Source: an uncultured Pseudomonadota bacterium (GTDB lineage: Bacteria > Myxococcota_A > Bradymonadia > Bradymonadales > Bradymonadaceae). Taken from it: DNA of 64,000 nt. The first letter of the stretch is position 1. Every line of letters starts with the position of its first letter. The position numbers and the translations under genes are program-made. Positions 29,960-42,782 of the stretch are shown here, piece after piece. The notes under the pieces were generated by a model that had not been told where the DNA came from, searched no databases, and saw only the letters and a program-made list of their open reading frames with translations. The stretch covers positions 1-64,000 of the forward strand of contig CATLTV010000004.1 of NCBI GenBank assembly GCA_950059285.1, given 5' to 3'.

Positions 29960-30033
29960 GCAAAGTAAAGACGACAAAAGAGGGGGCGAGTTGCTTTGGC
30001 AACTCGCCCCCTCTTTTGTCGTCTTTACTTTGC
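29960..30033. terminator. bidirectional hairpin terminator, 35-bp perfect stem
   Basis: Perfect 35-base arms with a TTTG loop, between the surA-like gene and carB; the right arm covers the last codons of carB. The core AAAAGAGGGGGCGAGTT resembles those at 56988 and 59929. Confidence 0.93.
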
Positions 30034-33000
30034 TAATCTTTCCTGGATGGGAGTCATGTGAACTTCAAGATTTTGGTCCATGGTGTTCAGCATCCAGGAG
30101 AGCGCCTGAATGGTGCTGACGTAGGGCCATTTTTCGGCGAGCACATGTCGAAAGAGTGTGTTGGTGTTGGCTTGTGTGCGCGAGCCCACGGGGGCGATGA
30201 GCGCGACCAGGCGAGGGGATTGATTGAGCTCTGGTGTCCAGAGCGTGATGGGGAGCTCCAAAGCTTGCTTGCAAGCGTCAATGCAATGTGCAGGTGCCAT
30301 GATCTCGTATTTGGCGAGTGTGTCGCGTAAGGTACGAAGCTCCGCGAGACTCTCGGGCGCGGCATCAAGCAGCAGAGGTTCTGTGGACATTTTGGGGGCG
30401 TTTCCAACAGCCACCTGCGCTCGCCAGAACGCCTGTTGTGGTGAGTCACCATATGCGAGGACTTCACCTGTGGATCGCATTTGTGGACTGAGCGTGGGTT
30501 GCGCGCCAGGGAAACGTGAGAAGGGTAACACGACCTCTTTACATGCCCAGCCATGTCCTCCCTTTTGAACCTCCTTGGGGAGAGGTTCGCCAAGGAAAAC
30601 ACCTGTTGCAAGGCTAGTGAGACAGACACCTGTGGCCTTCTCAACAAAGGGGATGGTTCGGCTAGCGCGCGGGTTGACCTCGAGCACGTAGATTTCATCA
30701 TCTTGAATCGCGAACTGAATGTTGATCAATCCCTTGATCTCAAGAGCCTTTGCGATGCGCTCTGTAAGTGACTCAAGTTGTTCGGTAATCTCTTGTGGTA
30801 GCGTGGCGGGAGGGAGCAAGCAAGCGGAGTCTCCCGAGTGCACACCAGCAGGTTCGATCTGCTCCATGAGTCCACCAATGAGCACATTGGTGCCATCACT
30901 TACTGCGTCCACATCGACTTCAACCGCGCCATCAAGATACGCATCAAGCAGGAGTGGGAGGGCTTCAGGATCGTAGGCATCTCCCGAGGAAGAGAAGAAG
31001 CGATCGAGCATAACCTCAAGATCGTTATCATTTCTCAGGATGGCCATTGACTGACCGCCAAGCACGCGAGACGGGCGAGAGAGTACGGGGTAGCCAAGTG
31101 ACGCAACTTCCTTGCGGACGTGCTCAGGTGTGTGTGCAATGGCTTGTGGTGGTAGCTTGAGATCGTTGTTGATTGCAAATTGTTTGAATCGCTCACGATC
31201 TTCGCAGGTGTCGATAACATCCTCTGTGGTGCCAAGGATGGTGACGCCTGCTTCGTTCAGGCCATGTGTCAGTCGTAGAGGAGTTTGTCCACCAAGTTGA
31301 ACAATGACGCCGAGAGGTTTTTCCTTGTCGATGACGTTCAGGACAGCTTCCAGATCGACAGGTTCAAAGTAGAGTCGATCGCTCATATCGTGGTCTGTAG
31401 AGACCGTTTCAGGGTTGCAGTTAAGCATGATGGCTTCGATGCCACGCGCCTTGAGCGCCATCACAGCCTTGACACAGCTTGTATCAAACTCAATGCCCTG
31501 ACCAATGCGGTTTGGACCACTGCCAAGGATGATCACACAGGGGGTGTCTGTGGGGTCTGCCTCGCAAGCATCCGCATATGTGGAGTAGAGATAAGGTGTG
31601 CTCGACTCAAACTCGGCGGCGCAGGTGTCAACACGTCGGTAGACAGGTGTGATCCCTGCGTTTTGGCGTGCAGCACGCGCAGCGCTTTCAGTCGCGTTAC
31701 AACAGTGTGCGATGGTGCGGTCCGAGAGTCCAAGTCGCTTGAGTTGTCGCCAGTCCAGCGCATCAAGGTCAGTGATATCTGATGGCAGCTCTTCTGTCGC
31801 GAGGACGATTTGAGCGATTTGTTCAATGAACCAGGCGTTGATTGATGTGAGCGCGTTGATGTGTTTCACGCTCACGCCAAGACGTAAAGCCTGGGCGACG
31901 TACCACAATCTATCGACTTCAAAAGATTGGATTTTTTCAAGGAGTTCTTCTTTTGAAAGTGAGGCGATATGAGGTGGTGCGAGCAGATCAGTCTGACCAT
32001 TTTCAAGTCCGCGCAATGCTTTGAGCAAGCTTTCTTTGAAGGTTCGTCCGATGCCCATGACTTCACCTACAGATTTCATCTGTGTAGTGAGGGTTGTGGT
32101 TGCATCAGGAAACTTTTCGAACGCGAAGCGAGGGATTTTGGTGACAATGTAATCGAGTGTGGGTTCAAAGCACGCGGGAGTTTTGCCTGTGATTGCGTTA
32201 TCGATCTCATCAAGTCCGTAGCCAATTGCGAGCAGGGCTGCAATCTTGGCGATTGGAAAGCCTGTAGCCTTACTTGCGAGCGCGCTGCTTCGACTCACGC
32301 GAGGGTTCATCTCGATGACGATCATGCGATTGGTGAGCGGATCGAGTGCAAACTGAATGTTTGAGCCACCTGTGGCGACACCAACTGCACGAATCGTTGC
32401 AAGTGAGGCGTTACGCATGCGTTGATATTCGCGGTCGGTCAGGGTTTGTGCAGGTGCAATGGTGATGGAGTCACCCGTGTGAACACCCATGGGATCAAGG
32501 TTTTCAATGGCGCAAACGATGACCGCACGGTCGTATTGATCGCGCATGACCTCCATTTCAAATTCCTTGAGACCAAGGAGCGATTCCTCGATCAGGACTT
32601 CAGACACAGGGCTCATATCGAGCGCCCATTCGACCATAGCATCAAACTGTTCGGGGGTTTCTGCGATACCACCGCCAACGCCACCAAGTGTGAATGACGG
32701 GCGGAGCACACAGGGAAAACCTGTTTCGAGGCTAATGGCACGTGCTTCTTCAAGACTTTTTGCGTGTCCGCTGATGGCGACATCGAGGCCAATTTCGACC
32801 ATACGTGCCTTGAAGAGCTCGCGATCTTCTGCGAGTCGGATCGATTCAGCGCTTGCACCAAGGAGCTCAATACCGAGCTTTTCGAGCACGCCTCTGTCAT
32901 GGAGTTCGAGCGCAAGTGTCAGCGCGGTTTGGCCACCCAGTGTGGGGAGGATCGCGTCGGGTCGCTCGATTTCAAGGATTCGCTCAAGGTCTTCGGGTGT

Positions 33001-33207
33001 GAGCGGTTCAATGTAGGTGCGATCTGCGATATCCGTGCTTGTCATGATGGTCGCAGGGTTGCTGTTGATCAGGATAATTTCGATGCCTTCTTCACGCAGC
33101 GCTTTGCAAGCCTGTGTGCCAGAGTAGTCGAATTCGCAGGCCTGTCCGATCTGGATAGGACCTGCACCGATCACACAGATACGTTTGAGGTCTTGTCGGC
33201 GTGGCAT
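30025..33207 (-). CDS. carB: carbamoyl-phosphate synthase large subunit
   Basis: A 1060-aa protein of normal length, with two ATP-grasp halves ([17 protein letters not shown] near the N-terminus, RIGQGIEFD in the second half) and the C-terminal allosteric domain. Starts with [20 protein letters not shown]. It makes carbamoyl phosphate from bicarbonate, ammonia (from CarA) and two ATP. It is the last gene of the arginine operon. Its 5' end overlaps the 3' end of carA by 37 bp, with AGGAG upstream of the ATG. Confidence 0.98.
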
Positions 33208-34388
33208 GATGGCGTGCTCCTGTGAATGAGGTCGATGAAACGAAGGAAGTGGTGGTGTGCGTCGTGAGGACCAGGGCTAGCTTCGGGGTGGTACTGGACG
33301 CTGAAGACGGGCAGTGTGTTGTGCGCGATGCCTTCAAGAGTGTGGTCGTTGAGGTTGACGTGAGTGACCGTAATATCGTCGGGAAGTGACTCTGAAATGA
33401 CATGGTAGCCATGGTTCTGGCTTGTGATTTCGATACGTCCTGTGGCGCGGTCAAGCACAGGATGGTTGGCTCCTCGGTGACCAAAAGGAAGCTTCTCAAC
33501 AGATGCGCCCATGGCCAGTGCAAGTATCTGATGACCAAGGCAAATTCCAAACATTGGGACCTTGCCAAGCATCTGTGTGACGGACTGGATTGGGCCTTCA
33601 AGTTGGCGAGGATCTCCAGGGCCGTTGGAGAGGAAGACGCCGTCGGGATTCATGCGCAAGACGGCATCTGCGGGGAAGTTTGCGGGGACAACCACCACCT
33701 TACATCCAAGCGCTGTGAGCTGCTCCAGAATGGCGCGTTTGATGCCAAAGTCATATGCGACAATGAGCCTGTTTTCACCGCGTACGCTCTGATGTTCAGA
33801 GGGTTGAATGGTGTACGGACGAGGCGTGCTTGCAAGCATGGCAAGCGCATGTTGGCGATGTTCGTCCCAGCTTGTGACGCTGTGTGCAAGCTCGGCCGCG
33901 ACCTCGGGCTCAATCTTCCATGGACCCGTTTGTGGGATGTTCGTGGTAAGCATCGCGGCCTGTGCACCTTGTGAGCGGATGTGTCGCACGAGCGCGCGTG
34001 TGTCGATTTGCGCGACGCCCATGATGCCATGATCCTTGAGGTATGCGTCGAGGCTCATCACCGAGTGCGGGTGACTTGGGATGTGTGTTTCTTCAGAGAT
34101 AATGAGGCCCGCAAGTCGAGGTCGGCTCGACTCGCTGTCGCGGGCCTGAATTCCTGTGTTTCCAATGTGTGGGTGTGTGAGCGTGACGATCTGCCCTGTG
34201 TAGGACGGATCGGTCAGGACCTCCTGATACCCTGTCATTGCAGTGTTGAACACGACCTCGCCGAAGACACTTCCTGGCGTGCCAAAGCATACGCCCAGAA
34301 AAGTTGTCCCGTCAGCAAGCACGAGCGCGGCGCGCAGCGGCTTGGTCGGCGTGTCTGGCGATTGTGGTGTGGATGATGGGCGGGTCAT
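33171..34388 (-). CDS. carA: carbamoyl-phosphate synthase small subunit
   Basis: A 405-aa protein from ATG 34388, which overlaps the argH stop by ATGA; an upstream in-frame start would cut into argH. The N-terminal CarA domain ([36 protein letters not shown]) is followed by a class I glutamine amidotransferase domain with the nucleophile Cys in [14 protein letters not shown] and a downstream [10 protein letters not shown]. It supplies ammonia to CarB. The presence in this operon suggests that carbamoyl phosphate is controlled with arginine demand. Confidence 0.97.
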
Positions 34389-35740
34389 GGTGACTCCTTT
34401 GACGTGAGCGTATCGACAACATTTTGCAGGCGTGATGTTTGCGTCTCGCACCAGGTGATATGCTCGTTGATGCGTTGTTGCATGCGCTTGATTTGTGTAG
34501 AAATATCAGGTGCTTGCGATGATGCTTCCGTGGTTGAACCTAGTTTTCCTTCTTCGATTTCCTGTGCAACTTGACGATATGCCTGCCGAAATGGAACGCG
34601 CGCTGCGACGAGCTCAAGCGCACGATGTGTGGCATAGAGTTCGGGCGTCATGGATTGCGCACATGCAGGTTCAATGACTTTGAGGCCATCAAAGACATGT
34701 CGAATGACATCAACCGAGGCGCTTGTGGATCGCGCGCCGCGCATAAGAGGAGCTTTGAGGAGCTGGTAATCACGATGGTAGCCCGAGGGCAAACTTGTCG
34801 GGAGGCTCATGACTTCAAGCAGTGCTGCGCGCACCCCATGGCCTTGCCCACGGATGAGTTCCATCACATCTGGGTTCTTCTTCTGAGGCATGATCGAACT
34901 CCCTGTGGTGTAGGCATCATCAAGCTTGAGCCAGCCCCACTCAGGGTTCACATAGAGGACAACATCACTGGCGAATTTGGCCAGCGTCCCCATCGATTGC
35001 GCCATGCAGAAGAGTAGTGACGCCTCCATCCTTCCTCGCCCTGCCTGCACCGCAGTCACAGGCTCAATGGGACGATCAAAACCAAGCAAGGACGCGGTGT
35101 AATCGCGATCAAGTGACACCAGATCGGTGGGCACGCCATATCCCGCAGCGCTGCCAAGTGCGCATACATTGCACGCTTTCCATGCATCGCGCGCCAGCGT
35201 CACGTCATCAAGCAGCAGTGATGCAAAACCGAGCGCCCAGAGCCCTACACTTGAAGGCATCGCGGGTTGAAGATGTGTCATTCCTGGAATGAGTATGTGC
35301 TTGTGAACGCTTGCAAATTCGATCGCTCTCTTGGCCACATCAAGTAGGCCAATCGCATGAAGGAGTGCCTGTTCTCGACACCACATCGCGATATCCACAG
35401 CAACCTGATCATTCCTTGACCTCGCTGTATGCAAGCGACCAGCGCTCTCGCCAAGTTTTGATGTCAGGATGCGTTCAACCGCAGAGTGAATGTCTTCATC
35501 CATCGGTCCAGGTGCAAGCTCTCCAGCCTCAGCAAGCGCGTAGAGTGCGATCAGCTCTTTTTTGAGCGCGAGCATCTCCTGATGTGTAAGAACACCTGCT
35601 TTTTCAATGGTTTTGATGTGAGCAAGGCTGCCGAGTACATCGTGTCTGGCGAGCTTGGCATCAAGGGTTTGATCATCCCAGATGGTGAATGTGGCGATTG
35701 CTTCGTTGAGCTTACTGCCCTTATCCCAGAGGGTTTTCAT
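34385..35740 (-). CDS. argH: argininosuccinate lyase
   Basis: A 451-aa member of the fumarase/aspartase superfamily. The signature GSSIMPQKKNPD is present, along with HTARSRNDQVA and MTHLQPAMPSSVG. It splits argininosuccinate into arginine and fumarate, the last step of the pathway. Its start overlaps the argE stop and its stop overlaps the carA start, each by ATGA. Length is normal. Confidence 0.98.
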   Translation of the reverse strand: MKTLWDKGSKLNEAIATFTIWDDQTLDAKLARHDVLGSLAHIKTIEKAGVLTHQEMLALKKELIALYALAEAGELAPGPMDEDIHSAVERILTSKLGESAGRLHTARSRNDQVAVDIAMWCREQALLHAIGLLDVAKRAIEFASVHKHILIPGMTHLQPAMPSSVGLWALGFASLLLDDVTLARDAWKACNVCALGSAAGYGVPTDLVSLDRDYTASLLGFDRPIEPVTAVQAGRGRMEASLLFCMAQSMGTLAKFASDVVLYVNPEWGWLKLDDAYTTGSSIMPQKKNPDVMELIRGQGHGVRAALLEVMSLPTSLPSGYHRDYQLLKAPLMRGARSTSASVDVIRHVFDGLKVIEPACAQSMTPELYATHRALELVAARVPFRQAYRQVAQEIEEGKLGSTTEASSQAPDISTQIKRMQQRINEHITWCETQTSRLQNVVDTLTSKESP

Positions 35741-36810
35741 GGTGTGGCTCCTTGGTGTGAATTCATAAACTCCTGAATCACACCCTTGTAGAGATTAACA
35801 GCGAGGTACACTTCATCGATGGCAACAGATTCGTTTGGCGTGTGTGAGCGTTCGCTTTGCCCAGGACCAATCTTGATGGTGGGTGTGTTCTTGAGATGAA
35901 CCCAGTCGCTCATGGTCGGCGATCCAAAGAGAGTGCTGCTTGGAGAGGATGCTTCAAGTGCTGCGAGTAACTTGCCTTGTGCGGGGGTTTCCACAGGAAG
36001 GAAGCGTTCGGAGTGCACACGAAGCTCTGACTCGGTGATGCCATCGAGTAGCTCAAAAATATCTGCTGGCGTGTATGAGGGCGTGTAACGAATATCGATT
36101 GTGTATTCGCACAGATCGGGGATCACGTTGTGGCGATCTCCACCCGAGATGACAGTCACGTTTGCCGAGGATGTGCCAAGATGTGGATGCACACGATCCA
36201 ATGTAAGTGATTCAATTGCAATAAGATCTCGTGCTGCAATTGTGAGCGCATTTTTACCCAAATGGCTACGCGCAGCGTGAGCTGTCTGGCCATGTGCACT
36301 GGCCTTGATAATCATCAACCCACTTTGTGCCACGGCTGCATCAAGCGATGTGGGTTCGCCGACAAGCGCTGCATCAAGCTGTCCAAGCGCGCTGCGGATC
36401 TCTTCAAGCCCGCCGCCACCTGTTTCTTCAAGTACGGTCGCGGCAAAGATGAGCTCCCCACAAGGAAGACCTTCCTGAGCAAGCTCCACCACGGAGCGTG
36501 CCATGGAGCATACGCTGGCCTTTGCATCGCCTGAACCAAGTCCCACGAGGCGTCCATCAATGATTTGAGGCGTCCACGGGTCCGTGTCCCAGCCTTGCTT
36601 GGCAGGGACCGTATCAAGGTGAGAGTTCAACAGGAACGTGGGGCCAGGCGTGGATGATTTGAGGCGGCACACTACATTATCACCCATACGGGTCACGCTC
36701 AGGTTGTGATCCGTGAGGTACGTGGTGAGCAGGTTGGCGGCGGCAGTTTCGTTGCCACTGACTGAAGGTGTCGCAACAAGCTGTTCAAGCAGGGTGATGA
36801 CATCGCTCAT
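35737..36810 (-). CDS. argE: M20 deacetylase, ArgE type (probable N-acetylcitrulline/ornithine)
   Basis: A 357-aa M20 metallopeptidase. Metal-binding motifs: LLNSHLDTVPA, GLGSGDAKAS, the catalytic ATVLEETGGGGL, and VGEPTSLDAA. In most bacteria ArgE removes the acetyl group from N-acetylornithine. Since the operon encodes an acetylornithine-type carbamoyltransferase, the likelier substrate here is N-acetylcitrulline, as shown for Xanthomonas. ATGA overlaps with both neighbours (argB and argH) indicate translational coupling. Confidence 0.88.
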   Translation of the reverse strand: MSDVITLLEQLVATPSVSGNETAAANLLTTYLTDHNLSVTRMGDNVVCRLKSSTPGPTFLLNSHLDTVPAKQGWDTDPWTPQIIDGRLVGLGSGDAKASVCSMARSVVELAQEGLPCGELIFAATVLEETGGGGLEEIRSALGQLDAALVGEPTSLDAAVAQSGLMIIKASAHGQTAHAARSHLGKNALTIAARDLIAIESLTLDRVHPHLGTSSANVTVISGGDRHNVIPDLCEYTIDIRYTPSYTPADIFELLDGITESELRVHSERFLPVETPAQGKLLAALEASSPSSTLFGSPTMSDWVHLKNTPTIKIGPGQSERSHTPNESVAIDEVYLAVNLYKGVIQEFMNSHQGATP

Positions 36811-37709
36811 AGCTCAACTCCCTCGTGCTTGTGTGGGACAATCAATGTGCCGCAGCCTTCATTGGTAAAGACTTCAAGCAGCAGTGATGAGGGTTGGAAT
36901 GCGCTGACCATGTGCACCTTGTTGACGCCATTCTTGAGGGCAGCCAGTGCAGCGAGGATCTTGGGTTTCATACCGCCAGAAATTGCTTTACTTTGAATCA
37001 TTTGCTCAAGGTCATTGCAGTCGCAATAGCTGACAAGTGAGGAGGGGTCACCAAGCTTTTCAAACAGCCCTTGTTGGTCCGTCAGCAGGAAGAGTTTGTC
37101 AGCGCCAAGGGCAATGGCGAGGTGTTGTGCGATGGTGTCAGCGTTGACATTGAGGACACCACCTGTGCGTGTCGCGCCAAGTGAACAGATGACAGGGACA
37201 AAGTTTGCTTGTGTGAGCGCGGTGATGACCTCGGTGTTGATCTTGGCGATGTCTCCCACATGACCAAAGTCGACCTGAGTGGTTGAGCCATCTTCCTTGA
37301 CCACATCCACAGGATGGCGGCGTGTAGCCTCAATCAGGCTGCCATCGTTTCCACTAAGTCCCACGGCTTGTGCGCCTGCTTCGCGCAGTGCAGAGACAAG
37401 CTCGAGGTTGAGCTTGCCACGGAACATCATCTTGGCCAGATCCAGTGTTTGCTCATCTGTGACCCTACGACCTCCGACGATGTGTTGTGGTACATCGAGT
37501 CGGTTGGCAAGCTCATTGAGTTGTGGTCCGCCGCCGTGGACGACGACGACATGAATGCCCACGTTGTGGAGCAGGACGATATCCTGTGAGAGAGAGCGCA
37601 GCGCCTCGGGTTTTGTAAAGATGCGACCACCAAGTTTGATGACAAAGATCTTGCCGCGATGCTGTTGAATGTAGGGAAGTGCTTGTTTCAGGTTGTGAAC
37701 GCGATCCAT
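36807..37709 (-). CDS. argB: N-acetylglutamate kinase
   Basis: A 300-aa amino-acid kinase. Motifs: KIFVIKLGGRIF at the N-terminus, VVVHGGGPQLNELANRL for substrate binding, GLSGNDGSLIEA, VNADTIAQHLAIALGADKL and GGMKPKILAAL. There is no fused GNAT domain, so acetylglutamate itself must be made by another enzyme. It phosphorylates N-acetylglutamate, the second step. Overlaps the argE start by ATGA. 59 bp separate it from argF'. Confidence 0.97.
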   Translation of the reverse strand: MDRVHNLKQALPYIQQHRGKIFVIKLGGRIFTKPEALRSLSQDIVLLHNVGIHVVVVHGGGPQLNELANRLDVPQHIVGGRRVTDEQTLDLAKMMFRGKLNLELVSALREAGAQAVGLSGNDGSLIEATRRHPVDVVKEDGSTTQVDFGHVGDIAKINTEVITALTQANFVPVICSLGATRTGGVLNVNADTIAQHLAIALGADKLFLLTDQQGLFEKLGDPSSLVSYCDCNDLEQMIQSKAISGGMKPKILAALAALKNGVNKVHMVSAFQPSSLLLEVFTNEGCGTLIVPHKHEGVEL

Positions 37710-37768: not shown

Positions 37769-38830
37769 TTATGTGGGTGTCATCGCCAGCATGAGCGCCA
37801 TTTGAGCCCAGAGTCGATTGTTTGCCTGATGTTGGACAAGTGATTGAGGTCCATCCAAGACCGAGTCTGTCACGACGACGTTTCGGCGCACGGGGAGGCA
37901 GTGCATAAACTGAGCTTGAGCGAGTTTGTGTTCGTCCACGATCCAGTTGTCGTAGCTCATGTTGCGTTCGGAGCCGTGTGCAGCGTTGCCATAATCACAG
38001 GGTGCTCCCCATGCCTTGGCGTAAATCACGTCAGCGCCCTGACAGGCTTCATCGATATCCTCGCTCAGTGTGAGTGAGCCGCCTGTGTGCTTTGCGCTCT
38101 CCCTGGCCATCTGCATGACTTCGGGATGAAGTGCATATTCCTTGGGGTGTGCGAGCGTGACATCCATGCCAAGTCGTGTCGCCATGAGCAGCGTGGATTG
38201 TGGGACCGCGACACCGCACATGCGTGGGTGTTTGGCCCAGGTGAGTGTGAACTTTTTGCCTGCAAGAGGCTGTGCGTTGGCCTCCATATGTTCATGCAAG
38301 GTGAGTGCATCAGCCAGCGCCTGACATGGGTGCCACATGGCAGATTCCAGCGAGATTACGGGCACCGAGGAGTGTTCTGCGAGGGCCTTGATGGGGACAT
38401 CTTTCATCTCTGAATCAAAGTCTTGCATGGCGCTAAAAGCGCGCAAGGCGAGCAGATCGCTGTAGCCCGAGAGCACCCCGGCGGCTTCAATGATGTGTTC
38501 TGCGCAGCCCTGATCCATGACCGCGCCTCTGGTGTATTCAATGGCCCATGAGCTTGCACCAGGTTCAAGCACTACCATGTGGCCACCAAGATGTTTCATT
38601 CCCACTTCAAACGATGTGCGTGTGCGCAACGATGGGTTCATGAATAATGCGGTGAGAATCTTTCCGTTGAGCGGTGTTAATTCTTTGAAATTAGGTGTGT
38701 TTTTGAGTGCTTTTGCAAGTGTCAGGACAGCGTCAAGAAACTCTGGTCCTCCCTCCAGGCCAGAGATGTAGTGAGAGGGAGCGAGGTTTGATGCAGCCAA
38801 CAGCGCAGATTGGTAAGAGGAGTCAGTCAT
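37769..38830 (-). CDS. argF': N-acetylornithine (or succinylornithine) carbamoyltransferase
   Basis: A 353-aa transcarbamylase. Carbamoyl phosphate motif: MNPSLRTRTSF. The family marker for the acetyl/succinyl-ornithine type is the C-terminal FMHCLPVRRNVVVTDSVLD, and also WAIEYTRGAVMDQ, HPCQALADALT and YAKAWGAPCDYGN; classical OTCases have HCLPA and a different SMG loop. In place of the Glu (acetyl, Xanthomonas) or Pro (succinyl, Bacteroides) that I recall before EH, it has Ala (CAEHIIEA). The acyl group is therefore uncertain. 8 bp downstream of argC. Confidence 0.88.
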   Translation of the reverse strand: MTDSSYQSALLAASNLAPSHYISGLEGGPEFLDAVLTLAKALKNTPNFKELTPLNGKILTALFMNPSLRTRTSFEVGMKHLGGHMVVLEPGASSWAIEYTRGAVMDQGCAEHIIEAAGVLSGYSDLLALRAFSAMQDFDSEMKDVPIKALAEHSSVPVISLESAMWHPCQALADALTLHEHMEANAQPLAGKKFTLTWAKHPRMCGVAVPQSTLLMATRLGMDVTLAHPKEYALHPEVMQMARESAKHTGGSLTLSEDIDEACQGADVIYAKAWGAPCDYGNAAHGSERNMSYDNWIVDEHKLAQAQFMHCLPVRRNVVVTDSVLDGPQSLVQHQANNRLWAQMALMLAMTPT

Positions 38831-38838
38831 GGCATCAC

Positions 38839-39891
38839 CTATGGGAGAGAAGGGGCGTGGAGCAGCCCTGTCGTTTCTGGGAGGTCAAACATGAGGTTCA
38901 TGTTTTGAATCGCCTGTCCTGAAGCGCCTTTGATTGTATTATCAATGGCACACATCACGACGAGTTCGTCGTCACCACAGATTACGCCAATGTCAGCGAA
39001 GTTTGAGCCGACGACGTGGTTGATTTCGGGTGATCCTTCACGCACACGTACAAAGGGAGCATTTTCGTAGGAGTCGAGGATGCTCTGTTTCAGCGCTTCG
39101 GGGTTGTCGGTGTGCATATGCGCGGTCGCGAAGATGCCGTGTGTCATGGGGGCGCTTGCTGGAATGAACGACAGCTTGGTGGTTTGCCCAAGTTGGTTGA
39201 GCAAGGCCAGCACCTCGGGCACATGTTGATGCGAGAGGACTTTGTAGAGTTTGTAATTGGTGTGACGAGAGGGGTGGTGCGTGCCTGCACCAGGTTTTTT
39301 CCCCGAGCCTGTAGAACCTGTGGCCGCGAAGATCGTGACATGCTCGGGGAGCACGTTGTGATGGGCCAGAGGTGCGAGGATCAGGTTGAGGGCAGTGGCA
39401 AAACAGCCAGGGTTTGCCACTGCTTTGGAGAGTTTCACTGCGTCACGGTTCCACTCAGTGAGCCCATAGACAAAGTTGTCCATGAGTTGTGGCGCGACAT
39501 GCTCCTGTTTGTAGTGTGTGGCGTAGAGGTCTGCCTGTGCTTCAGGAAGTCTGAAATCACCTGAAAGATCAATGATATGGCAGTCTGGTTCGCCCTGTTC
39601 AAACAGGGGGGCGATGATTTGAGCGGAGGCCTTGTGAGGGAGCGCAAAACAGATCGCATCTACTTCGTTAGTAAGCGTGTCGAGGTTTTTGATATCCCCA
39701 CAAGTAAGGTCGATGATACCTGCAAAGTGAGGCCAAATTTTGGAGAGCTTGATGCCGTTGAGATCGCGGGCAAGCGCGTGGGTGAGCTCAAAGGCAGGGT
39801 GGGCTGCGATCAAGCGGCACAGCTCAGCTCCGACATAACCTGTGACCCCGACCACGGCGATCTTCTTTTTTGCAGCGAGTGGTGCTGTCAT
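38839..39891 (-). CDS. argC: N-acetyl-gamma-glutamyl-phosphate reductase
   Basis: A 350-aa NADPH-dependent reductase of the semialdehyde dehydrogenase family: Rossmann motif VVGVTGYVGAELCRLI, catalytic Cys in VANPGCFATALN, and PASAPMTHGIFATAH. Third step of arginine synthesis. Overlaps the stop of the P-loop gene by ATGA. Confidence 0.97.
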   Translation of the reverse strand: MTAPLAAKKKIAVVGVTGYVGAELCRLIAAHPAFELTHALARDLNGIKLSKIWPHFAGIIDLTCGDIKNLDTLTNEVDAICFALPHKASAQIIAPLFEQGEPDCHIIDLSGDFRLPEAQADLYATHYKQEHVAPQLMDNFVYGLTEWNRDAVKLSKAVANPGCFATALNLILAPLAHHNVLPEHVTIFAATGSTGSGKKPGAGTHHPSRHTNYKLYKVLSHQHVPEVLALLNQLGQTTKLSFIPASAPMTHGIFATAHMHTDNPEALKQSILDSYENAPFVRVREGSPEINHVVGSNFADIGVICGDDELVVMCAIDNTIKGASGQAIQNMNLMFDLPETTGLLHAPSLP

Positions 39892-40985
39892 ACCTCTTCC
39901 TTTTGATGCTTCAATTTTTGTAGTTCTTTAACGCCTTCAACCACGGCAGCGCCAAACTCTTCTGTGTGGATGATGGCGTTAAATGCTTTGGTGTGGAGTT
40001 GTTCACGAATTTGCTGGCATCCGATGTGATTGTCGGTGACTGGACCAGAGAAGATATCAGGGCGTTTTTTAAGCTCATTGGCAAAGAGTGCCATGGCACC
40101 AAAGCTCCCCACAGGATCGCTTGCGCAGCACACATGTAGTGTTGGAATTTGTGCAATGATGGGGTCCTTCAGGATTTCCATCACGCCGTAAGCGCCAAGG
40201 AGTCCATCGCCCATTTCCACAACGATGACATCAGGGTTAGTGCCCTGGTGACTGAGCGCGTAGAGCAGTTGTTTTGCGCTGTGAGGTGCGGAGTCTGCTG
40301 ATGTGGATGGGAGGCCCACATCGACGAAAGTCATTGCCTTTGTGGCACCACAGTCAAGCATGGAGAGCACGTCCTTGCGAGCGGCGACGCCTGTGAACTT
40401 TGCCGCATCAACACCCATGCCCGATTTTTTGAGCGCACGTACCGCAGCGCTCGCAGCTAACGTCTTTCCTGCGTTCATACAAGTGCCTGAAATGATAACC
40501 AAAATGGGCACATCTTTGATGTGTTGCTCTTGAAGCGCGGGGGTGGATGACATCTCCGACATGTTCAGGTTTGCAGGCACACCTTCACGCGAATCAATCA
40601 CGGGAAATGTGAGGACTGAGCCGAGCACTTCGAGCACCGTGGGAGGGCCAACCATCGGGTTGGATGTTTTGCATATACCCATCACACCACCCAGGTTGAG
40701 CATGTGAATGGTGTCGCCAACTTCCAGTGTTTCAGGAATGACGCCGCCATGTCCATGTAATGCGTGGCGCTGACCGAGTGCGCCCACCACCACATCACCC
40801 ACATGGATCTCAACCTGACGACCGTATATATCTTCAAGATGTCCGTAGCGCTGGCTTCTTTCCAGCACTTTTGCGGCGATGATTTCACCACGTTGTGCCT
40901 GGATTTTCTCGCTCAAAAGCGCCTGTGTGGCGATGGAGAGTTGCGCTGTGACGCTACCTCGTTTGTCAATGGTCACGCGCTTCAT
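39888..40985 (-). CDS. uncharacterised P-loop NTPase within the arginine operon
   Basis: A 365-aa cytoplasmic protein. The N-terminal ~150 residues are a beta-rich domain (VEIHVGDVVVGALGQRHAL, GGVMGICKTSNP). Then a Walker A motif, SGTCMNAGKTLAASA (about 165-180), begins a P-loop domain resembling the dethiobiotin synthetase/DUF1611 type, with DVIVVEMGDGLLGAYG as a likely Walker B-like strand. It overlaps the argG stop and argC start by ATGA on both sides, so it is made in step with arginine enzymes. It might be a ligase, a regulator or a substitute for a missing step. I cannot assign a reaction. Confidence 0.85.
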   Translation of the reverse strand: MKRVTIDKRGSVTAQLSIATQALLSEKIQAQRGEIIAAKVLERSQRYGHLEDIYGRQVEIHVGDVVVGALGQRHALHGHGGVIPETLEVGDTIHMLNLGGVMGICKTSNPMVGPPTVLEVLGSVLTFPVIDSREGVPANLNMSEMSSTPALQEQHIKDVPILVIISGTCMNAGKTLAASAAVRALKKSGMGVDAAKFTGVAARKDVLSMLDCGATKAMTFVDVGLPSTSADSAPHSAKQLLYALSHQGTNPDVIVVEMGDGLLGAYGVMEILKDPIIAQIPTLHVCCASDPVGSFGAMALFANELKKRPDIFSGPVTDNHIGCQQIREQLHTKAFNAIIHTEEFGAAVVEGVKELQKLKHQKEEV

Positions 40986-42220
40986 AATGTCTCCTTGTCA
41001 GCCTGTGTGTTGGCTTGCTGGCGAGCGCGTGCGGCAAGAAGAGACTGCGTTCCAAAAATGGTACAGAATCCACGTGCATCGGCAGCGCTCCAAAGCGTGT
41101 TTCGCTCGCCATATGTACCTGCTGCCGCTGACATCATGGAGTACGGAGACTTCACGCCACAGACTTGCACGCAGCCCTGGCGGATCTTGATGCGCACCTC
41201 ACCACAGACCGTGTACTGTGAGGAATCAAGGAACGCTTCCATGTCGCGCATGACGGGGTCGAAGTACTGCGCTTCATGGAGTAACATGCCGTAAAAATTG
41301 GATATTTGAGTGTTCCAGTGTGATTGCCAACGTGTCAGGACAAGCTTCTCAAGTTCGCGGTGTGCGTCGTGCAAAATGCTCGCTGCGGGAGCTTCAAATG
41401 CGATCCTTCCTTTGATACCAAGGATGGTGTCGCCCACATGAATTCCGCGACCAACGCCATGCTCCGCGCCAAGTTGGTTGAGCGTGCGGACTAGCTCCAC
41501 GCCACCCAGTGGTGTGCCATCAATCGCAGTGGGAATACCCTGGTCAAAGGTCAATGTGAATGTGTGTCCTTCATCGGGTGCTTCATGTGCAGGCTTGGTC
41601 CAGACGTAAGCCTCATCAGGCGGAACTTGCCAGCTATCGTGAGTTTCCTTGCCGCCAATGGTGACGCCCCAGAGCCCCTCGTTGATAGAATAATCTGTGG
41701 TGGATGTGGGGATCTCGACGCCATGTTTTGCGAGCCACTGGCTGCACGCCTCACGGGTCCATTCTTCATCGCGGACAGGGGCGAGCAGCTCGGTGTTGGG
41801 GCAGAGCGCACGAAGGGCGACGTCAAAGCGAATCTGGTCGTTGCCTGCGCCTGTGGAGCCATGTGCGATGGCGTTTGCACCAAATTTGTTGGCGATGTTT
41901 GCGACGACACGTGCTTGCACCACACGCTCTGCGCCCACACACAACGGATAAACTCCACCACGCTTGATGTTACCCTTGATCAGGTAGGCGATATGATCAT
42001 CAAAGACCGCCTGCGTGGCGTCAAAGTGGATGTGTTCCTTGACGCCAAGGGCGTGCGCACGTTCGGCGATTTCTTTGGCTGTGTCCTTGTCAAAACCACC
42101 TGTGTCTACGGTGACTGTGATGACGTCATAGCCAAACGTTTCCTGGAGGTAAAGGAGGCAGAACGAGGTATCAAGTCCGCCAGAAAAGGCAAGTACAACG
42201 AGTGGGTTTTGTGTGGCCAT
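40982..42220 (-). CDS. argG: argininosuccinate synthase
   Basis: A 412-aa ATP-pyrophosphatase-type ligase: PP-loop AFSGGLDTSFCLLYL, then AIAHGSTGAGNDQIRFD, YSINEGLWGVTIGG and SPYSMMSAAAGTYGE. Joins citrulline and aspartate. First structural gene after argR, from which it is separated by 115 bp of AT-rich DNA. The stop overlaps the P-loop gene start by ATGA. Confidence 0.98.
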   Translation of the reverse strand: MATQNPLVVLAFSGGLDTSFCLLYLQETFGYDVITVTVDTGGFDKDTAKEIAERAHALGVKEHIHFDATQAVFDDHIAYLIKGNIKRGGVYPLCVGAERVVQARVVANIANKFGANAIAHGSTGAGNDQIRFDVALRALCPNTELLAPVRDEEWTREACSQWLAKHGVEIPTSTTDYSINEGLWGVTIGGKETHDSWQVPPDEAYVWTKPAHEAPDEGHTFTLTFDQGIPTAIDGTPLGGVELVRTLNQLGAEHGVGRGIHVGDTILGIKGRIAFEAPAASILHDAHRELEKLVLTRWQSHWNTQISNFYGMLLHEAQYFDPVMRDMEAFLDSSQYTVCGEVRIKIRQGCVQVCGVKSPYSMMSAAAGTYGERNTLWSAADARGFCTIFGTQSLLAARARQQANTQADKETL

Positions 42221-42335: not shown

Positions 42336-42782
42336 CTAGTTGATGCCAGCAACCTCACGGAGCTGATCCGCGAGCGCCTGTTGGTGCAAGCTGTCCTTGA
42401 GCGCGATAAAGATGGTGTCATCACCTGCGATGGTGCCTGCAAGTCCTGGCAATGGGAGCGCATCAAGCGCGGCGCCCACGAGCTGGGCCGTGGCTGGCTT
42501 GACGCGCAATACAATCAGGTTCTCTCCCACACAGTACAGCGTCAGGAGGTGGTGCCATACCGTGCCCGAGAACTCGGGAAACTCGGGGAGCTGCTCTTCA
42601 ACAGGGAGGCAGTAGACGCCGTTGGTTTTGCTCAGGTTCAACGCCTTGATATCGCGTGAGATGCTGGACTGCGTCAGGTTAATTTGGTGTTGGGCCAGCG
42701 CATCGATAAGATCGGACTGGGTGCGGTAGTCATTCTCTGCGATCAGGTCACGCAAAAGTTCAAGTCGTTCTTGGCGGTTCAT
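42336..42782 (-). CDS. argR: arginine repressor ArgR
   Basis: A 148-aa regulator with an N-terminal winged helix (RLELLRDLIAENDYRTQSDL, LTQSSISRDIKALNL) and a C-terminal hexamerisation/arginine-binding domain (LPGLAGTIAGDDTIFIALKD), which keeps the GDDT motif that contacts arginine. As the first gene of the operon it likely represses its own transcription and that of argG to carB in the presence of arginine. Confidence 0.96.
   Translation of the reverse strand: MNRQERLELLRDLIAENDYRTQSDLIDALAQHQINLTQSSISRDIKALNLSKTNGVYCLPVEEQLPEFPEFSGTVWHHLLTLYCVGENLIVLRVKPATAQLVGAALDALPLPGLAGTIAGDDTIFIALKDSLHQQALADQLREVAGIN

Follow-up and report, generated by a model that had tools for sequence, protein, structure and literature searches.

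A P-loop protein encoded between argG and argC is a candidate N-acyl-L-glutamate synthase of bacterial arginine biosynthesis

Contig CATLTV010000004.1 of an uncultured member of the Bradymonadaceae (Myxococcota_A; GenBank assembly GCA_950059285.1) carries, within the 64,000-nucleotide stretch that we analysed (positions 1 to 64,000, referred to as the window), an arginine biosynthesis operon in which a protein that we call X is encoded between argG and argC. We propose that X is likely the missing first enzyme of the pathway, an N-acyl-L-glutamate synthase, and that, if it is, the acyl group that it attaches is probably succinyl. We infer this activity, its essentiality and the acyl donor from the position of the gene, its conserved synteny, the mutual exclusion of X and the profiled glutamate N-acylating enzymes, the specificity residues of the accompanying carbamoyltransferases and the predicted fold of the protein. 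The best explanation of these observations is that X is a non-homologous replacement of ArgA and ArgJ.

Results

On the evidence of open reading frames (ORFs) and of Pfam and NCBIfam matches, the window operon reads argR-argG-X-argC-argF'-argB-argE-argH-carA-carB on the minus strand (Table 1). A preliminary description of this DNA, made from its letters, had pointed to a 365-residue Walker A gene with ATGA overlaps to argG and argC, and the ORFs bear this out: 4 bases are shared at argG-X and at X-argC, as they also are at argB-argE and argE-argH. The protein carries SGTCMNAGKTLAASA, and its Walker A motif occupies residues 166-175 (SGTCMNAGKT). The same description had remarked that argA, argJ and argD are missing from the operon, and we likewise find none of the three there; in the whole source genome (G000), moreover, neither ArgJ nor a TIGR01890-type ArgA has a match. 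The aminotransferase gene argD is located on another contig of this genome (G000:C54, 497 bits to TIGR00707, cut-off 410) and stands within the cluster in many relatives, so its omission from the window operon is uninformative. We considered X as the missing aminotransferase and rejected the idea, since many loci have an argD next to X within the cluster and G000 has one on another contig.

With an alignment of nine X sequences as query, relatives of X were matched in 400 stretches of GTDB species genomes, from which the 80 best-scoring loci were kept. The titles of the kept loci span about ten phyla and name, besides Myxococcota and Bdellovibrionales, a series of groups (Planctomycetota, Elusimicrobia, Acidobacteria, Armatimonadetes, Gammaproteobacteria, Gemmatimonadales, Eisenbacteria and others) in which the order argG-X-argC is repeated, indicating that the coupling of X to arginine genes is not a matter of chance. 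The co-occurrence with argC and argG that had been suggested as a check among Myxococcota extends beyond that phylum. In all, argC comes immediately after X in 73 of the 76 kept loci that are not cut at this point, and argG immediately before it in 69 of 79; these counts come from the tblastn layout, since our ORF picker merged or lost some genes in the 80 loci. X clusters often contain argG, argC, argD, argF', argB, argE and argH, and no profiled glutamate N-acyltransferase was found in them. Because the other steps are commonly present and the first is missing, X stands out as the conserved gene that lacks an assignment. For cluster ORFs of about 375-400 residues, which lie between argC and argF' or at another position, ArgD models rank first (eight cases scanned, or seven and the argD of G000 itself). 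The argB matches in 50 X genomes cover the kinase part of TIGR01890 alone, up to about position 290 of 429 and with no GNAT part, so no fused acyltransferase is seen in those 50. A comparison of X with viral contigs returned no match.

One set of 284 Myxococcota genomes was searched for X, ArgJ, classical ArgA and the acylornithine carbamoyltransferase model NF003384. Full-length X is present in 53 of these genomes and ArgJ in 142, and the two rarely meet: ArgJ occurs in 1 of the 53 genomes with full-length X versus 141 of the 231 without it (Fisher p 4.6e-17, a descriptive value, because the genomes are related and no phylogeny correction is applied). The lone genome with both, G259, has 6% contamination. 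Classical ArgA was found in 17 of the 284 genomes, none of which has full-length X. Matches to NF003384 over the cut-off fall into two score classes. The 20 genomes above 548 bits, whose carbamoyltransferase is of the acetyl type, contain neither X nor ArgJ, while full-length X is found in 50 of the 58 genomes at 306-435 bits, the succinyl class. The NAGS-kinase fusion (NAGS-K) was sought through its acyltransferase domain, PF04768, which was matched in 18 of the 20 acetyl-type genomes versus none of the 53 X genomes. The presence of the enzymes that supply N-acylglutamate, ArgA (TIGR01890), NAGS-K (PF04768) and ArgJ (PF01960), is complementary to that of X across Myxococcota. Outside this set, ArgJ and ArgA were searched for in 50 X genomes found by way of loci with titles from other groups; none had ArgJ and one had a full-length ArgA.

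Two further observations concern individual genomes. A planctomycete metagenome-assembled genome that also has X carries a classical ArgA at 627 bits on a contig of its own (G285:C65:415-1704), possibly through contamination. Within its family (f1), G000 is the one sampled member that carries X; an acetyl-type ArgF' is found in most of its sisters and the NAGS-K domain in many. It looks as though its entire arginine pathway was replaced, together with the acyl group.

The acyl group handled by these pathways can be read in part from the carbamoyltransferase. At residues 92, 185 and 302 (Xanthomonas numbering), acetyl-type enzymes have E/N/K and succinyl-type enzymes have A/S/P/V/Q, P and V/I/E, respectively (PMC4581275), and S, P, A or V at the first of these positions favours a succinyl substrate (PMC7311316). 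All 20 of the NAGS-K-associated carbamoyltransferases carry E/N/K. Among the 61 aligned enzymes from X loci, position 92 is always A, P, S, Q, T or V, accompanied mostly by P at 185 and V/I/E at 302, from which it follows that X most likely makes N-succinylglutamate. The window ArgF' reads A/G/V at the three positions, two of which fit the succinyl type, suggesting that its substrate may be N-succinylornithine.

No Pfam or NCBIfam family was assigned to the window X, and nothing came near an NCBIfam cut-off. The ArgA, ArgJ and NAGS-K models (TIGR01890, PF01960, PF04768) are not among its matches up to E 0.1, PF07755 (DUF1611) and the DgcN model do not match, mobB reaches 13.5 bits (cut-off 76.2) and bioD gives no match. 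PF01960 and PF04768 are also absent from the families matched by 62 X members. In the open-access papers searched, with subscription papers and preprints outside the scope, we found no description of the family.

Structure prediction had also been proposed as a check. An AlphaFold2 model of X built from 62 sequences (predicted local distance difference test, pLDDT, 95.1; predicted template modelling score, pTM, 0.93) has an N-terminal beta domain at about residues 1-126 and a C-terminal SIMIBI-type P-loop domain at about residues 160-365, and K174 and T175 are invariant in the 62 sequences. Foldseek groups the P-loop half with BioD (E 5.5e-6), signal recognition particle GTPases, HypB and DUF1611 (2obn, E 2.8e-5, TMq 0.39), and it finds no PDB counterpart of the isolated N-terminal domain (best E 0.36). 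Sequence searching of the PDB with X returned no relative and profile searching returned only the BioD P-loop (E 0.034). Forty of the 62 X members match PF07755 weakly (best E 5.5e-4), and hhalign places X and 12 DUF1611/DgcN proteins in a collinear alignment of 167 columns (E 9e-4, probability 22.6%) that covers just the P-loop part. We conclude that the P-loop domain of X is distantly related to the DUF1611/BioD group, the two families with which the preliminary description had suggested that it be compared.

DUF1611 proteins match the NCBIfam DgcN "N-acetyltransferase" model (NF041892) at scores under its equivalog cut-off, and genes annotated as dgcN adjoin one for N-acetyl-D-Glu racemase. 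We take the function of DgcN from its NCBIfam name and PLSDB annotation; the enzyme reportedly acetylates D-glutamate with acetyl-CoA. DgcN and X have P-loop domains of the same broad group and would share glutamate N-acylation as their reaction, a precedent that speaks for our assignment of X. They differ in that DgcN is encoded beside the racemase DgcA and a D-amino-acid transaminase whereas X is encoded beside argG and argC, and in that L-glutamate and succinyl are the predicted substrates of X. The dethiobiotin synthetase BioD has the P-loop fold and Walker A context seen in X, but X has an extra N-terminal beta domain, falls far below the bioD model and resides in an arginine rather than a biotin context.

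Weaker relatives of X were found outside arginine clusters, and two of these paralogue groups adjoin M20 amidohydrolases, which we count in favour of the proposed function of X. Those scanned score below the 25-bit cut-off of PF07755 and reach at most 26 bits with bioD (cut-off 83.3). The paralogues retain the Walker A motif, D205, D211 and E257 and vary at S11, L76, G78, N97, G264, D318, N336 and A337 (the misframed L143 is left out of this comparison); the varying residues are candidates for the substrate pocket of X. In loci L139 and L140, from genomes with ArgJ and ArgA (G068, G072), the paralogue adjoins an M20 hydrolase opposite a glutamate-cysteine-ligase-like gene. A Priestia megaterium plasmid encodes a paralogue (L198, 5899-6960) in a cluster with ornithine carbamoyltransferase, two ATP-grasp, M20 amidohydrolase, phosphoenolpyruvate-mutase-family and two thiamine-pyrophosphate-enzyme genes, which looks like a phosphonopeptide-type biosynthetic cluster. 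On Rhodobacterales plasmids of Sulfitobacter and Paracoccus (L196, L197), an ABC transporter ATP-binding gene comes after each of the two paralogues, which are annotated as DUF1611 proteins.

The remaining genes of the window operon are listed in Table 1. The listed GTG start of carA overlaps argH by 67 bases, and the true start is probably downstream of it.

Table 1. Genes of the arginine operon in the window
Gene and product	Coordinates	Strand	Evidence
argR, arginine repressor	42336..42782	(-)	Arg_repressor N and C domains; 115 bases upstream of argG
argG, argininosuccinate synthase	40982..42220	(-)	PF00764/PF20979; TIGR00032 324 bits, cut-off 268
X, 365 aa, candidate N-acyl(succinyl)-L-glutamate synthase	39888..40985	(-)	ORF, alignments, AlphaFold2, Foldseek
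argC, N-acyl-gamma-glutamyl-phosphate reductase	38839..39891	(-)	TIGR01850 333 bits, cut-off 234
argF', N-acylornithine carbamoyltransferase	37769..38830	(-)	NF003384 395 bits, cut-off 288; specificity residues
argB, acylglutamate kinase, 300 aa, without fused acetyltransferase domain	36807..37709	(-)	TIGR00761 237 bits, cut-off 151
argE-like M20 deacylase, candidate N-succinylcitrulline desuccinylase	35737..36810	(-)	Peptidase_M20 and M20_dimer; DapE/ArgE family below equivalog cut-offs
argH, argininosuccinate lyase	34385..35740	(-)	Lyase_1
carA	33171..34451	(-)	CPSase_sm_chain and GATase
carB	30025..33207	(-)	CPSase_L domains

Discussion

As an N-succinyl-L-glutamate synthase, X would use succinyl-CoA to succinylate L-glutamate at its amino group, after which ArgB, ArgC, ArgD, ArgF' acting as a succinylornithine carbamoyltransferase, a desuccinylase, ArgG and ArgH would complete the pathway. 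The P-loop would bind the phosphate-rich part of the donor, be it CoA or ATP. The pocket for glutamate and the acyl group may be formed or closed by the N-terminal beta domain together with the clade-specific motifs ALHG, LN.GG, GDG..G.Y, GP.TDN and NA. ArgJ recycles its acetyl group, which a linear pathway of this kind cannot do. The same step of a succinylated arginine pathway has been proposed for BT3761, an N-succinylglutamate synthase candidate, and for the NAGS Cabys_1732 (PMC7311316). X is a P-loop protein, and we take the family of BT3761 and Cabys_1732 to have the GNAT fold instead.

Several points weigh against our assignment of X. The case is built from genes and a predicted fold, and the homology to DUF1611/DgcN proteins is weak and confined to the P-loop domain. 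The synteny counts describe the best-scoring loci among the 400 matched, the exclusion covers profiled synthases, with GNAT synthases of the BT3761/Cabys_1732 type outside the searches, and the search of the 50 genomes from other groups did not extend to PF04768. Gly185 of the window ArgF' is neither the acetyl-type Asn nor the usual succinyl-type Pro. In addition, 8 of the 58 genomes with a succinyl-class ArgF' are without full-length X. Five of them (G160, G237, G277, G266 and G183) have a short contig, a contig that stops close to the arginine genes, or a fragment of X on a contig end, and the missing X may therefore reflect an assembly break. G043, by comparison, has the cluster argR-argG-argC-argF'-argB-argH-carA-carB (L186, G043:C173) with an A/G/V ArgF' and with neither X nor argE, and no ArgJ or classical ArgA was found in it; in G232 and G167 the clusters are rearranged, lack X and encode an ArgF' that is not of the acetyl type. 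X may thus be truly missing from up to three genomes that have a succinyl-type carbamoyltransferase, and another synthase must exist in them. G064 presents the reverse case, with X and no acylornithine carbamoyltransferase over the cut-off.

Among the alternatives, X might carry out the same step with acetyl-CoA, as an N-acetyl-L-glutamate synthase resembling DgcN on D-glutamate. Every argument made at the level of the enzyme applies to this version except for the acyl group, the DgcN model is that of an acetyltransferase and Gly185 of the window ArgF' departs from the usual succinyl-type residue. We nonetheless regard it as unlikely, given the non-Glu residue at position 92 in all aligned X-locus carbamoyltransferases and the fact that acetyl-type ArgF' accompanies NAGS-K and never X in the 284 genomes.

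An ATP-dependent ligase that joins free succinate or acetate to glutamate, in the manner of ATP-using BioD, would suit the intact Walker A motif with its invariant K174 and T175 and the high rank of BioD in both the fold and the sequence matches. DUF1611/DgcN proteins, however, keep a P-loop (GTDC..GK) and include one named as an N-acetyltransferase, so a P-loop need not mean ATP hydrolysis, and we rate this conceivable chemistry as improbable. Much the same low credence attaches to its broader form, in which X joins free succinate to glutamate by ATP-driven ligation as one member of a superfamily of P-loop enzymes that N-acylate amino acids and that include more, unexplored proteins.

It also appears quite improbable that the first step is performed by an unlinked GNAT of the BT3761/Cabys_1732 type that the profiles missed, with X in some other pathway role. 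That family has been assigned to the first step in Bacteroidetes (PMC7311316), the profiles used do not cover it and G043 must use something besides X, but the GNAT gene would have to be unlinked across the sampled groups while the other arginine genes cluster with X, and X would be left without a step. Very unlikely, and least likely of all, is a regulator or chaperone of arginine flux, a nucleotide-dependent switch on ArgG or ArgC instead of an enzyme: tight translational coupling to both genes and a SIMIBI fold also found in GTPases such as FtsY and HypB would fit it, but the near-exclusion with ArgJ, NAGS-K and ArgA, which disfavours any purely regulatory role, and the link to a succinyl-type linear pathway would go unexplained, and the operon already has argR. 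Of the roles that the preliminary description offered for this gene, namely flux regulator, ligase and pathway step, it is thus the last that we favour, with glutamate N-acylation as the step.

For lack of ArgA and ArgJ, genome-based reconstruction would class bacteria with X as auxotrophic for arginine or show a gap at the first step of their pathway. If X is the synthase that we propose, this gap would be closed for several hundred species, a non-homologous fold would be added to a much-studied reaction and the succinylated arginine pathway would extend far outside Bacteroidetes. X and its relatives would also define a testable P-loop superfamily, represented in arginine clusters, in a phosphonate-like plasmid cluster and in other contexts, with some members beside M20 amidohydrolases. 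Should ATP-driven ligation prove to be the chemistry of X, arginine synthesis in many bacteria would start by a reaction other than acyl-CoA transfer.

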